Source of the DNA: Acidobacteriota bacterium
GTDB taxonomy: Bacteria; Acidobacteriota; Holophagae; Holophagales; Holophagaceae
Direction: 5' to 3'
Length of the DNA: 64,000 nucleotides
Assembly: GCA_016195985.1 (NCBI GenBank)
Contig: JACPYP010000015.1
Span: 1 to 64,000 of the forward strand
In this document: positions 30,101 to 61,456 of the stretch, in pieces
Numbering within the stretch: position 1 is the first letter of the stretch
Layout: every line of letters starts with the position of its first letter
Position numbers and translations under genes: made by a program
Notes under the pieces: generated by a model
Seen by the model: only the letters and a program-made list of their open reading frames with translations
What the model was told of the DNA's origin: nothing
Databases searched by the model: none

Positions 30101-30245
30101 TCCTACCAGCTGACCACGCGGAGGCTGGGACTGATCTCCACTCGGCACGGCCTGCGGCCGCGACCGAGGCGCCTGCCTGCACTCGGGGCCGGGCCTCGGA
30201 TGGGCGTCCTACCAGCTGACCACGCGGAGGCTGGGACTGATCTCC
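30101..30245. repeat. 39-bp direct duplication of the nfu 3' end
   Basis: The 39 bp at 30101-30139 and 30207-30245 are identical. The second copy encodes the last residues and stop of the Nfu protein; the first lies downstream of it, separated by a 67-bp GC-rich spacer. The duplicated piece keeps the stop codon. Confidence 0.9.
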
Positions 30246-30754
30246 TCTTGGAGCAAGCCTTCGATGTAGCGCAGGGTGCCACTGGTGGAGGAGGGGCAGG
30301 ATCCGCAAGCGCCGTGGTAGCTGATCTGGAGGGTCTGGCCGTCGAAGGAGATCACCTCCAGGCCACCGCCATCCCCTGCCAGGCCGGGCCGGATGCGCGA
30401 GTCGAGCAGCTGGTTGATGCGTGCCAGAGTGGCGTCCGCATCGCCGCCGGGGGTGAGCGGAGCGGAGTCGCCCAAGTCGTTCTCAGGGAGCTTCAGATCT
30501 TCGATGGCCTCACAGATGGGATCGATGAGATCCGTCCATTCCGCGGAAGGCTCTTTGTTCACGGTGACGAAGCGGTCCATGTAGAACACGGAAGTGATCT
30601 TGCCCAAGCCGAAGAGGCAGGAGCCCAGCGGATCCCCCACGGCGGCGCCGAAATCCTTGAAGGAGCGGGAACCCGCCTTCAGGATGGCCGGATGCACCAG
30701 GAACTTGAGTGCATCGGGGTTGGGCGTGGGTTCGATGTTGATGACCTTGGGCAT
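30209..30754 (-). CDS. Nfu-type iron-sulphur cluster carrier
   Basis: A 181-residue protein. The N-terminal Nfu_N (scaffold) domain starts INIEPTPNPDALKFLVHPA and includes LFGLGKITSVFYMDRFVTV. The C-terminal NifU domain carries the cluster ligands in ACGSCPSST (Cys-x2-Cys). Such proteins carry 4Fe-4S clusters to client enzymes; the architecture matches eukaryotic/bacterial Nfu1. Its promoter region is shared with a divergent Dph6-like gene and contains a 24-bp motif also present upstream of bacilliredoxin. Confidence 0.94.
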   Translation of the reverse strand: MPKVINIEPTPNPDALKFLVHPAILKAGSRSFKDFGAAVGDPLGSCLFGLGKITSVFYMDRFVTVNKEPSAEWTDLIDPICEAIEDLKLPENDLGDSAPLTPGGDADATLARINQLLDSRIRPGLAGDGGGLEVISFDGQTLQISYHGACGSCPSSTSGTLRYIEGLLQEEISPSLRVVSW

Positions 30755-30769
30755 GGCGGTCTCCCAATA

Positions 30770-30793
30770 AAGTTTACCAAATTCGTCAGGATT
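30770..30793. promoter_or_regulatory. Shared 24-bp motif in the nfu / Dph6-like divergent promoter (copy 1)
   Basis: AAGTTTACCAA-N4-GTCAGGATT at 30770-30793; the same 20 fixed bases with the same spacing recur at 59044-59067. It lies 15 bp upstream of the nfu ATG and 50 bp before the divergent start. On the minus strand TAAACT could serve as a -10 box directly ahead of the nfu ribosome site. Confidence 0.55.
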
Positions 30794-30842: not shown

Positions 30843-31511
30843 ATGGCACGAACGAAGACCCTGCTGAGCTGGTCCAGCGGCAAGGACGCCGCCTGGGCGC
30901 TGCACACCCTCCGCCGGACGGGGGAGGTGGAGGTCGTGGGCCTGCTCACCACCACCAACGAGGCCTTCGAAAGGGTGGCCATGCACGGGGTGCGGGAGGC
31001 GCTGCTGGAGGCTCAGGCGGAAGCCGCGGGCCTGCCGCTCTGGAAGGTGCCGCTGCCCTGGCCCTGCTCCAACGAGGCTTACGAGGCGCGCATGGCCGCC
31101 GTGTGTGCCGAGGCCAAGACCCAGGGCATCGAAGCCATGGCTTTCGGCGACCTCTTTCTGGAGGACGTGCGGGACTACCGCATCCAAAAGCTGGCGGGAA
31201 CGGGGCTGCGTCCCCTCTTCCCCATCTGGAATCCGGATACCGCGGGTCTGGCGCAGGAGATGGTCGGGGCCGGGCTCCAGGCCACCCTGGCCTGCGTGGA
31301 TCCGCGTGTGCTGGCCGCGGGATTCGCCGGGCGGGATTTCGACGCGGCCCTGCTGGCTGATCTTCCCCGGGAGGTGGATCCCTGCGGTGAGCGGGGCGAG
31401 TTCCACACCTTCGCCTGGGGAGGGCCCATGTTCCGGCATCCCGTGGCCATCCGCCGAGGCGAGGTGGTGGAGCGGGACGGCTTCGTTTTCGCCGATCTGC
31501 TGCCGGCCTGA
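30843..31511 (+). CDS. Dph6-like adenine nucleotide alpha-hydrolase (PP-loop ATP pyrophosphatase)
   Basis: A 222-residue protein with the ATP-binding PP-loop LSWSSGKDAAWAL near the N-terminus. The downstream Dph6 family motifs are AFGDLFLEDVRDYRIQ, PLFPIWNPDTAGLAQEM and CGERGEFHTFAWGGPMF. In eukaryotes and archaea this fold amidates diphthine; bacteria lack diphthamide, so the bacterial members have another, mostly unknown substrate. The good ribosome site (CAGGAG) supports the start at 30843. It is divergent from nfu. Confidence 0.88.
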   Translation: MARTKTLLSWSSGKDAAWALHTLRRTGEVEVVGLLTTTNEAFERVAMHGVREALLEAQAEAAGLPLWKVPLPWPCSNEAYEARMAAVCAEAKTQGIEAMAFGDLFLEDVRDYRIQKLAGTGLRPLFPIWNPDTAGLAQEMVGAGLQATLACVDPRVLAAGFAGRDFDAALLADLPREVDPCGERGEFHTFAWGGPMFRHPVAIRRGEVVERDGFVFADLLPA

Positions 31512-58594: not shown

Positions 58595-59023
58595 TCACCC
58601 GGCGGCCACGGTCTGGCGATAGGCGTCGCCCAAGGCAGTGGCAATCTCTTCCGGGGCATGACCCAGGAAATCCGAGCGCTGCATGAGGTGCACCAGTTGG
58701 CCGTCCTTGAGGATGGCGGCCTGTGGGCTGGTGGGCATGGCGCCCTCGAAATATTCGCGGGCCTGGGCCGTGGCCTCTTTCTCCATGCCGGCGAACACCG
58801 TGACCAGGTGGTCGAACTTCAGGCCCTGGGTGCGCAGCGCCTCCGTGACGCCCGGCCGGGCGCCGGCAGCGGCGCAACCGCAGACACTGTTGACCACCAG
58901 CAGGGTGGTGCCGGGCTGCTGCAGGGCCTGATCCACCTGGGCCGGCGTCAATAGCTGCCGGAAGCCGGCCTGCACGAGCTCTTCACGCATCGGTGCGACC
59001 ATGTGTTCGGGATAGTTGGACAC
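58595..59023 (-). CDS. Bacilliredoxin (BrxA/BrxB, YphP/YqiW family)
   Basis: A 142-residue thioredoxin-fold protein with the hallmark CGC site (VNSVCGCAAAGARPG, Cys48 and Cys50). Other family parts are LDVxFAGxxKEATxxAR-like (VFAGMEKEATAQAREYFEG) and GAMPTSPQAAILKDGQLVHLM. In Firmicutes these remove bacillithiol from proteins; outside that group the thiol partner is unclear. It shares a promoter region with the divergent FMN reductase gene and a 24-bp motif with nfu. Confidence 0.93.
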   Translation of the reverse strand: MSNYPEHMVAPMREELVQAGFRQLLTPAQVDQALQQPGTTLLVVNSVCGCAAAGARPGVTEALRTQGLKFDHLVTVFAGMEKEATAQAREYFEGAMPTSPQAAILKDGQLVHLMQRSDFLGHAPEEIATALGDAYRQTVAAG

Positions 59024-59043: not shown

Positions 59044-59067
59044 AAGTTTACCAATCGAGTCAGGATT
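59044..59067. promoter_or_regulatory. Shared 24-bp motif in the bacilliredoxin / FMN-reductase divergent promoter (copy 2)
   Basis: AAGTTTACCAA-N4-GTCAGGATT, the same as at 30770-30793 in 20 fixed bases with equal spacing. It is 20 bp upstream of the bacilliredoxin ATG and 27 bp upstream of the reductase ATG. Confidence 0.55.
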
Positions 59068-59094
59068 GATCCAGATCACATTGAAGGAGGAATC

Positions 59095-59637
59095 ATGCGG
59101 CTGGTCTTGATGGGCGGAAGCCTCCGTCCCCAATCCTTGAACGGTAGGCTGCTCAGGCATTTGGCCCGGGAACTGGAAGGGCGCGGCCATGAGGTCGCGG
59201 CTTTCGGCGGAAGGGCCCTCCGTATGCCGCTGTACGAGGACGGGTTGGCGCCCGCGGAAGAAACCAGGGCCCTGAGCGAGGCCCTCCAGGGAGCCCAGGG
59301 CCTGGTGATCGTTTCGCCGGAGTACAACGCGGGCATTCCAGGCCACTTGAAGAACGCGGTCGACTGGTTGAGCACCCTGAAGCCCAGCCCCTGGCCGGGC
59401 CTGCCCGTGCTGCTTTGCGCCGCGAGCCCAGGGGCCTTCGGCGGCGCCCGCGGCCTCATGGCCTGGCGGGCCACCCTGGCGAACATGGGTGCCCTGGCGC
59501 TGCCGGAATCGCTCACGGTGCCCCATGCGGACCAGCAGCTGGACGAAGATGGCCGCCCGGTGGAGGCCCGCACCGCCGCCCTGGTGCCCAGGCTGCTGGA
59601 CGGCTTCCTGTCCCTGGCCGCGCGGTTGCGGCCCTAG
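59095..59637 (+). CDS. NAD(P)H-dependent FMN reductase
   Basis: A 180-residue flavodoxin-fold enzyme; ATG 59095 has AAGGAGG at ideal spacing. FMN-binding GSLRPQSLN (residues 7-15) and the PEYNAGIPGHLKNAVDW motif identify the NADPH-dependent FMN/quinone reductase family (SsuE, ArsH and ChrR relatives). Substrates may include quinones, chromate or azo compounds. It is divergent from bacilliredoxin, and the pairing fits redox stress. Confidence 0.94.
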   Translation: MRLVLMGGSLRPQSLNGRLLRHLARELEGRGHEVAAFGGRALRMPLYEDGLAPAEETRALSEALQGAQGLVIVSPEYNAGIPGHLKNAVDWLSTLKPSPWPGLPVLLCAASPGAFGGARGLMAWRATLANMGALALPESLTVPHADQQLDEDGRPVEARTAALVPRLLDGFLSLAARLRP

Positions 59638-59680: not shown

Positions 59681-61456
59681 ATGAAGGATTTCTTCAAGAC
59701 TTTTTTCGCCGCGCTGCTGGCCCTCACGGTGGCGGGCGGGCTGGCCTTCGTGTTGTTCTTCGGGCTGCTGGCTGTGATCGGTTCCTCGGGGAAACCCACG
59801 GTGCCCGGCAAGGCCGTGCTGGTCTTCGATCTGGACACCAACCTCTCCGACGCTGAGCGCGAACCGGATCCCAGCGAGGTGGTCAACGAGGTCATGGGCA
59901 TCGGCGGCTCCCACGGCCAGCCGCTGCCCGCCATGATCGAAGCCCTGGACCGGGCCGCTTCGGATTCCCGCATCAGCGCCCTGTTCCTGACCGGCAGTCT
60001 GCAGGGCGGGGGCCCCGCCCAGCTGCGGGAACTGCGCGAGGCCATTCAGCGCTTCAAGGCCAAGAAGCCCGTGCTGGCCTACAACCTGGGCTGGAGCAAG
60101 CGGGACTTCTACCTGGCGGCGGGCGCCACCACGGTCTTCATCAATCCCTTCGGCGAGATGGAAGTGAACGGCCTGGCCAGCGAACCCATGTTCTTCGGCG
60201 AGGCTTTCAAGAAGTACGGCGTGGAGGTGCAGGTCACCCGAGTCGGCAAGTACAAAAGCGCCGTGGAGCCCTTCATCACGGATCACATGAGCGAACCCAA
60301 CCGCGAGCAGGTCCAGAAGCTGCTGGAGGACATCTGGAGCGAGTGGAAGGAGACGGTGGCCAAGGACCGGAGGAAGGCCCCGGCCGATCTCCAGGCCCTC
60401 GCCGACGAGAATGGCATCATCGAGGCGGAGGAGGCCCGCAGGCTGGGCCTGGTGGACCGCGTCGCGCCCTACGACGAAGTGCTCAATGAGTTGAAGAAGG
60501 TCGCGGGCAAGGAGGCGAAGGACAAGGATTTCCCCCAGATCGCCCTCGCCACCTACGCCGGCATTCCCGGTGAGGCCCGGTCCGGGAAGACCCGCCTCGC
60601 GGTGCTGGTGGCGGAAGGCGAGATCGTGGACGGCGAAGGCAAGGCCAGCCAGGTGGGGGGCGAGAAACTGAGCCGCGAGCTGCGGCGCCTCCGCATGGAC
60701 GAGCGGGTCAAGGCCGTGGTGCTGCGCGTGAACAGCCCCGGTGGCAGCGCCTCCGCGTCCGAGCTGATCCAGCGCGAAGTGGTGCTCACCAAGAAGGTGA
60801 AGCCCGTGGTGATTTCCATGGGCCATCTGGCGGCGTCCGGCGGCTACTGGATCAGCACCTACGGCGACCGCATCTTCGCGGAACCCACCACCATCACGGG
60901 GTCCATCGGCGTTTTCGGGATGTTCGCCAACGTGAAGAAGCTGGCCAATGAGCACGGCATCACCTGGGACAGCGTCCAGACGGCCAAGCTGGCCAATCCC
61001 GCCACCCTCACGCGGCCCAAGAGCGAACTGGAACTGAGCCGCCTCCAGGGCCTGGTGGACCGCATCTACGATCAGTTCATTGCCAAGGTGGCCGACAGCC
61101 GCAAGCTGAAGAAGGAAGCCGTGCAGGAGATCGCCCAGGGCCGCGTGTGGTCCGGCCAGGAGGCTCTGAAGCTGGGCCTGGTGGACGAACTGGGCGGGCT
61201 GGACGCGGCCCTGAAGCACGCCGCCAAAATGGCCAAGGCCGAGAACGATTTCTACGTGGCCGGCCCCGAGCGGGAGCCCGACGCCCTGCGGGAATTCCTC
61301 AAGGGACTGAGCCAAGGCAAGAGCCGGAAGCTGGCCAAGCAGGGCCCCGTGGAGGCGCTGGCGGGATCCTTCAAGGCGCAGCTGGAACGCCTGTCTTCCC
61401 TGAACGATCCCCAGGGCGTCTATGCCCGCATCCCCTTCGAGATCGACCTCAAGTGA
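59681..61456 (+). CDS. sppA: Signal peptide peptidase SppA, double-length type
   Basis: A 591-residue membrane-bound serine protease with two ClpP-like halves. The N-terminal helix (LLALTVAGGLAFVLFFGLLA) anchors it. The catalytic Lys192 in GKYKSAVEPF (N-half) and the nucleophile Ser386 in AASGGYWIST (C-half) match the E. coli 67-kDa SppA dyad. The GSIGVFGMFANV oligomerisation strand follows. It digests released signal peptides in the periplasmic face of the membrane. A GC hairpin follows the stop. Confidence 0.95.
   Translation: MKDFFKTFFAALLALTVAGGLAFVLFFGLLAVIGSSGKPTVPGKAVLVFDLDTNLSDAEREPDPSEVVNEVMGIGGSHGQPLPAMIEALDRAASDSRISALFLTGSLQGGGPAQLRELREAIQRFKAKKPVLAYNLGWSKRDFYLAAGATTVFINPFGEMEVNGLASEPMFFGEAFKKYGVEVQVTRVGKYKSAVEPFITDHMSEPNREQVQKLLEDIWSEWKETVAKDRRKAPADLQALADENGIIEAEEARRLGLVDRVAPYDEVLNELKKVAGKEAKDKDFPQIALATYAGIPGEARSGKTRLAVLVAEGEIVDGEGKASQVGGEKLSRELRRLRMDERVKAVVLRVNSPGGSASASELIQREVVLTKKVKPVVISMGHLAASGGYWISTYGDRIFAEPTTITGSIGVFGMFANVKKLANEHGITWDSVQTAKLANPATLTRPKSELELSRLQGLVDRIYDQFIAKVADSRKLKKEAVQEIAQGRVWSGQEALKLGLVDELGGLDAALKHAAKMAKAENDFYVAGPEREPDALREFLKGLSQGKSRKLAKQGPVEALAGSFKAQLERLSSLNDPQGVYARIPFEIDLK

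Follow-up and report, generated by a model that had tools for sequence, protein, structure and literature searches.

The DNA analyzed here is a stretch of 64,000 nt (the window). It represents contig C23 in a genome of 4.26 Mb from the genus Geothrix (Holophagaceae, Acidobacteriota). Towards its end a 24-bp motif lies in an intergenic stretch of 71 bp between the divergent genes of a bacilliredoxin and an FMN reductase family protein, and a twin copy is located between the gene of an Nfu-type Fe-S carrier and a divergent gene of the Diphthami_syn_2 family (Table 1). The names bacilliredoxin, FMN reductase and Fe-S carrier had been given in a first-pass annotation of the letters, and family scores back all three. 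The bacilliredoxin sequence contains VCGCAAAG, and a CGC motif is the mark of BrxA/BrxB bacilliredoxins. BshC-like matches above the family cut-off were observed in 74 of 93 genomes of the class and, with 39 bits, in the own genome, which makes bacillithiol production likely; most of these matches are weak and in two pieces, and they are present also in genomes of genus g11 without a bacilliredoxin match.

Table 1. Positions of the two motif copies, the neighbouring genes and the abutting site in the window
Feature	Position	Strand	Evidence and remarks
Nfu-type Fe-S carrier (Nfu_N and NifU domains)	30209..30754	-	PF08712 72.2 bits; PF01106 66.8 bits; start 15 bp from motif
Second copy of the candidate operator, before nfu	30770..30793		own-genome profile E 6e-5, the site itself being in the training set
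Diphthami_syn_2 family gene, divergent	30843..31511	+	PF01902 89.8 bits; start 49 bp from motif copy
Bacilliredoxin (BrxA/BrxB family), GTG start	58595..59023	-	TIGR04191 168.9 bits (cut-off 100); PF06491 171.1 bits; GGAGG 5 bp upstream
Candidate operator, IscR-like (Rrf2-type), before bacilliredoxin; minus-strand reading AATCCTGACTCGATTGGTAAACTT	59044..59067		exact copy; 41/43 genus loci; own-genome profile E 6e-5, the site itself being in the training set
CRP/FNR-like site, minus-strand TGTGATCTGGATCAAT	59065..59080		overlaps candidate operator by 3 bp; probably serves FMN reductase
NADPH-dependent FMN reductase family protein, divergent	59095..59637	+	PF03358 (FMN_red) 111.8 bits; not at this place in 11/43 genus loci (tblastn of neighbours)
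Peptidase family S49 gene	59681..61456	+	PF01343 269.4 bits; adjoins bacilliredoxin divergently in the 11 loci that have no FMN reductase at this place

The motif before the bacilliredoxin gene reads AAGTTTACCAATCGAGTCAGGATT and its twin AAGTTTACCAAATTCGTCAGGATT, so that 20 of the 24 bases are common to both, namely fixed stretches of 11 and 9 bases around 4 others. The first-pass annotation had described the copy at 59044–59067 as exact in all 20 fixed bases and as lying within 30 bp of both start codons; coordinates and identity were confirmed, and we measured a gap of 20 bp to the GTG of the bacilliredoxin (59021–59023, minus strand) and of 27 bp to the ATG of the FMN reductase (59095). When the pattern AAGTTTACC-N5-AGTCAGGATT was searched with at most three mismatches, these two copies were the only matches in the 64-kb window and none was found in 100 dinucleotide shuffles, while 4e-9 exact 20-base matches per 64 kb would be expected from base composition alone. 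A looser pattern gave 300 matches in 47 genomes of the genus compared to 72 for the pattern read backwards, and nine compared to five in the own genome, where the matches before the genes named here were followed. A strict palindrome was tried as a description of the motif and rejected: among 35 aligned sites the dyad score exceeded the 95% level of shuffles only in 4 of 5 ispH sites, and it stayed at or below this level for all brx, nfu, suf, sod and iscR sites.

The bacilliredoxin gene is present in 44 of the 47 genus genomes, and 43 loci were aligned upstream (G025, whose two matches lack the N-terminus, was left out). This phylogenetic footprinting, which had been proposed as a check along with the first annotation, revealed the motif before bacilliredoxin in 41 of the 43 loci, and it is conserved in some of the sister genera as well (see below). 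Forty of the 41 reach 29.7 or more with a matrix built from six own-genome sites, the brx site among them, and L082, where the contig end cuts the locus within the motif, was counted by eye. The canonical motif is absent in L072 (best score 3.0) and in L087, which has a weaker stretch (24.5) further off. In the stretches fetched for these two loci we found no FMN reductase, S49 peptidase or DUF4403 gene, and their bacilliredoxin therefore seems to sit in another neighbourhood. Their upstream sequences differ from the rest and have CATTACAA-like words in common.

We then asked which of the two divergent genes the motif follows. The divergent neighbour is the FMN reductase in 29 of the 43 loci, the S49 peptidase in 11 and neither of them in 3. 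As the motif is kept in 11 of 11 loci without FMN reductase at that place, it belongs to bacilliredoxin; its distance from the bacilliredoxin start is nearly constant, with the core GTA 23–27 bp upstream in the 41 loci. The FMN reductase is accompanied by a separate site. The sequence TGTGATCTGGATCAAT abutting the motif is close to the CRP consensus, and of the genus loci that have the FMN reductase 23 of 29 show TGTGA-N6-TCA at this position, versus 0 of the 11 that do not (Fisher p 5e-6, ancestry ignored). The abutting sequence TGTGAYCTRGATCA is similar to operators of the CRP/FNR family in its likeness to this consensus, but the second half of the window site is TCAAT and not TCACA. In the own genome TGTGAYCTRGATCACA with at most two mismatches gave 12 strand matches (10 places) versus 0 in the backward control. 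The CRP/FNR-like site is thus kept with the FMN reductase, and each of the two divergent genes probably has a site of its own, the two sites adjoining. The proposal of the first-pass annotation that one 24-bp element could control both genes at once was not borne out by these loci: at 20 bp from one start and 27 bp from the other the element is near enough to act on both, but with the motif retained where the FMN reductase is missing and the reductase tracking the abutting site we regard joint control as rather unlikely. A side effect of the box on the FMN reductase may nevertheless occur, because the box lies 27 bp from its start.

For the search beyond the window we built a sequence-only profile from 35 genus sites and scored at most 150 first-look candidates per genome (150 of 381 in the own genome). 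At E ≤10 the own genome has at least seven matches, which precede nfu, bacilliredoxin, ispH, sufB, a DsbH/YyaL-like gene, an IscR-like gene and the SOD gene; six of the seven belong to the training set, and the DsbH/YyaL-like site (E 0.012) does not. The gap between box and start is 20 bp for brx, 15 bp for nfu, 30 bp for SOD, 28 bp for sufB, 29 bp for the IscR-like regulator gene, 11 bp for ispH and 2 bp (to an ATG) for the DsbH/YyaL-like gene. The box contains TTGACA at sufB and TTGACT at iscR. The earlier idea of a small redox regulon that links thiol repair to the Fe-S carrier 28 kb away thus gains from sites of the same type before nfu, sufB, ispH, SOD and the IscR-like gene, as far as a shared regulon is concerned, and 'small' appears roughly right in view of at least seven profile matches among the 150 of 381 candidates scored.

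Eight Rrf2 proteins are encoded in the own genome, and the product of the IscR-like gene, located outside the window at C32:68359 (L045:7360-7866), is our candidate regulator. This C32 regulator scores best to the IscR model among the eight (122.6 bits, the others 28–70), carries the Rrf2 winged-helix domain (PF02082, 108.8 bits) and matches the solved E. coli IscR 4hf0 over residues 1–135 (phmmer E 1.3e-28). The residues described as contacting DNA in IscR are S40, Y41, E43, Q44 and R59 (PMC11475020); of these positions E43, Q44 and R59 are kept in the C32 regulator, S40 is replaced by P and Y41 by F. In IscR a [2Fe-2S] cluster controls DNA binding; the cysteines 92/98/104 that hold this cluster are absent in the C32 regulator, and the position of His107 is Arg. 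No cysteine was found between residues 72 and 132 in 30 genus proteins and 13 aligned family proteins. In the 13 family members, including two at 45–46% identity, C71, C133, C141, C144 and C146 do not vary at all, and C165 is kept almost throughout. Because the protein fails the cysteine test and with 122.6 bits also lies below the NCBIfam IscR equivalog cut-off of 207.55 bits, we classed it as an IscR-like variant. The AlphaFold model, with a mean pLDDT of 71 and values under 50 within the cysteine tail, is too weak to show whether this tail would bind Fe-S or zinc or sense thiols. The gene has a start codon other than ATG and adjoins a PP-loop gene, upstream of which it lies, and not suf.

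Eight Rrf2 proteins also leave room for a different one to bind the box, be it either of the two encoded on C17, the protein on C1 that resembles CymR, or one of the rest. However, none of the other seven genes adjoins a profile match among the matches listed, and by eye the E43-Q44 pair in the recognition helix is present only in the C32 regulator, so that we find a different Rrf2 protein very unlikely. The box lies before the gene of the C32 regulator itself. In the genus we read 30 regulator loci from 44 genomes with a match (45 rows), and in all 30 the box is AAACTTGACTCAWTCRCTCARGAAT or a slight variant of it. In genera g3–g10 18 loci (of 23) were fetched, and a significant box precedes the regulator gene in all 18, the weakest being that of G061; for each of them none of 100 shuffles scored as high. 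In genus g2 the box is not significant or borderline in both loci (p 0.18 and 0.05). Here and for the sufB boxes described next the shuffles preserve base composition only.

Presence of the regulator and of the sufB box coincide. Among the genomes tested, the box was found before sufB in all 7 that have the regulator and in 0 of the 17 that do not (Fisher p 3e-6, ancestry ignored), and within the family in 7 of 7 with versus 0 of 4 without (g11); three g2 genomes were left out of this test, as were G049, G057 and G086, in which SufB has no match. As all genomes with a close regulator belong to one family, the co-occurrence does not represent many independent events. The three genomes of g2, a genus with small genomes, all have (L229, L231, L232) a palindrome TTGTGGACTT-N3-AAGTCCACAA with a GACTT-AAGTC core before sufB, which is perfect in two of them and shows one change in G054. 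The g2 regulator is 45–46% identical to the C32 regulator and has lost Arg59 and Gln44, and judging from the sequences box and regulator seem to have changed together in this genus. By a contig scan, which depends on the presence of a short conserved peptide and may overlook relatives, the regulator was recognized at 45–97% identity in 58 loci of Geothrix, Holophagaceae, Holophaga and Acidobacteria MAGs, and relatives at 34–38% identity were found in three Clostridia. Two MAGs labelled Deltaproteobacteria and Bacillota among the regulator loci appear to be the family members G067 and G068.

We applied the profile also to 46 genomes of other genera, none of which contributed to training. A match at E ≤1 was obtained in 22 of 23 genomes with a close regulator (at least 54 matches), in 9 of 20 genomes without the regulator (at least 14 matches) and in two of the three g2 genomes (at least 2 matches). 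From 70 listed matches of other genera 30 were read, 22 from genomes with the regulator and 8 from genomes without a close regulator or of g2. Nine of the 22 precede nfu, five precede sufB, three lie between AhpC and arginine deiminase, two precede a PALP-family gene, two lie elsewhere and one, at a contig end, directly follows the TPR gene that in the own genome is located upstream of sufB. At these loci nfu and sufB were recognized by their N-termini, and at four loci also by Pfam. Outside the genus the box was found before bacilliredoxin in 9 of 19 loci (G059 of g4, G060 of g5, G067 of g7 and six of g9), at −68 to −19 before the start, with shuffles that preserve base composition only. It is absent in the other ten (five of g6, three of g2, G061 and G079), seven of which (five of g6, G061 and G079) belong to genomes with a close regulator.

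The spread of the sites bears on a further explanation, according to which the box would be recognized by a particular sigma factor as part of a promoter, with the GGTAAACT half acting as a −10-like sequence. TAAACT indeed points at the gene in the own-genome brx, nfu and sod sites, and there the site ends 15–30 bp before the start codon. However, TAAACT in this orientation is absent from the sites of sufB, iscR and ispH, the ispH sites are for the most part dyads, and the element tracks the presence of one Rrf2 regulator and also precedes the gene of that regulator. A half-site that doubles as −10 element is compatible with the operator and the promoter view alike, and taken together we consider a sigma factor element highly improbable.

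Comparison with known systems places the candidate regulon next to that of IscR. From its targets and sites its function looks like that of an IscR type 1 regulon, and the asymmetric box is similar to the E. coli IscR type 1 sequence. As in E. coli, the C32 regulator has an Rrf2 fold with E43, Q44 and R59 and a box before its own gene, and Fe-S assembly genes (nfu, sufB) are likely targets in the own and sister genomes, judging from their sites. In Yersinia, nfuA and erpA are reported to have predicted type 1 IscR sites (PMC4055776). In contrast to E. coli IscR, the C32 regulator has conserved C-terminal cysteines instead of Cys92/98/104 and His107 and P/F instead of S40/Y41, and its gene lies before the PP-loop gene and not in an isc operon; moreover, suf has the same kind of box as the other targets here and bacilliredoxin is among them. 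In Myxococcus xanthus, the Rrf2 protein RisR is described to repress Fe-S operons through negative feedback, with GAC-N7-GTC as the core of its site (PMC9973013), and most boxes here have GAC-N7-GT(A/C). According to the same account, which places Acidobacteria members in the RisR group IS6, RisR keeps C92/C102/C108, is without E43/Q44/S40 and is located in the suf operon (PMC9973013); the C32 regulator, by contrast, is without these cysteines and its gene is not located by suf. With CymR, the Rrf2 protein of cysteine metabolism, the system shares the box before PALP-family genes in the sister-genus loci L162 and L164, but the C32 regulator reaches 98.7 bits against a cut-off of 195 and the targets here are mostly Fe-S assembly genes.

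From these findings we consider it quite probable that an IscR-like Rrf2 factor of the Holophagaceae, which would regulate its own gene, has the 24-bp element as its operator and that its regulon includes the bacilliredoxin served by the site at 59044. Points that speak against this reading are the low score of the C32 regulator to IscR and its missing cluster cysteines, the weak dyad symmetry outside ispH, the bacilliredoxin loci that have no box in spite of a close regulator, and the profile matches in genomes that have no such regulator. The likely regulon in this genome comprises nfu, sufBCD, ispH, SOD, bacilliredoxin, the regulator itself and perhaps the DsbH/YyaL-like thioredoxin-fold gene. 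With enough Fe-S or with reduced thiols the C32 regulator would occupy the box 2–30 bp before the seven starts and block transcription, while Fe-S or thiol stress would free the box, so that Fe-S assembly, superoxide removal and thiol repair would rise together. By analogy with IscR and RisR, occupancy of the box should fall when Fe-S supply fails. The box probably acts in repression; this may occur by promoter overlap, although a consensus scan for a sigma-70-like promoter found none at either window site. The box could instead be an activator site, in the way that E. coli suf is reported to be activated by IscR from a type 2 site (PMC9973013, PMC12594620), which we hold to be distinctly unlikely because the seven own-genome boxes end 2–30 bp before the start codons, a position better suited to repression. 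The operator reading suggests that bacilliredoxin is linked directly, at the genetic level, to the supply of Fe-S clusters. What was a single repeated motif thereby becomes a regulon that can be tested and for which a candidate regulator is named, in a phylum that has received little study. In the titles and abstract openings of mostly open-access literature we found no such bacilliredoxin/Fe-S Rrf2 regulon of Geothrix or Holophaga.

A more tentative proposal, to which we give somewhat less than even weight, concerns the sensor. The regulator may be derived from IscR with a moved sensor, in which the C-terminal C133, C141-x2-C144-x-C146 and usually C165 would bind a metal or Fe-S cluster or react with thiols, and bacilliredoxin would be driven together with Suf, Nfu, SOD and IspH. 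If this is true, thiol repair would be part of Fe-S homeostasis and not of a general disulfide-stress response. IscR-like DNA recognition that is kept while the cysteine places have changed would show how sensing and DNA recognition evolve apart.

Some further boxes were recognized during the analysis. In the sister genera the loci L162, L164, L171, L175 and L178 have boxes before a PALP-family (cysteine-synthase-like) gene or between AhpC and arginine deiminase, and in L164 another stretch that resembles the box lies directly upstream of the profile match. L156 (G049), from a class member without a close regulator and without a SufB match, has the IscR-like box ATCTTGACTAAAATGGTCAACT, which is a strong match (E 0.014). 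A recurrent match of the genus before a DEAD-box RNA helicase gene was left out of the profile and is not among the own-genome matches listed; in L127–L131, L134–L136 and L146 the helicase promoter has the similar box AATCCTGAC-N6-GGTAAACTA or a close form of it. Downstream of this helicase box a conserved leader was observed near TTCGTGATCGCAGGCGACCCCCGGTCTCCGCC, which may be an RNA element.
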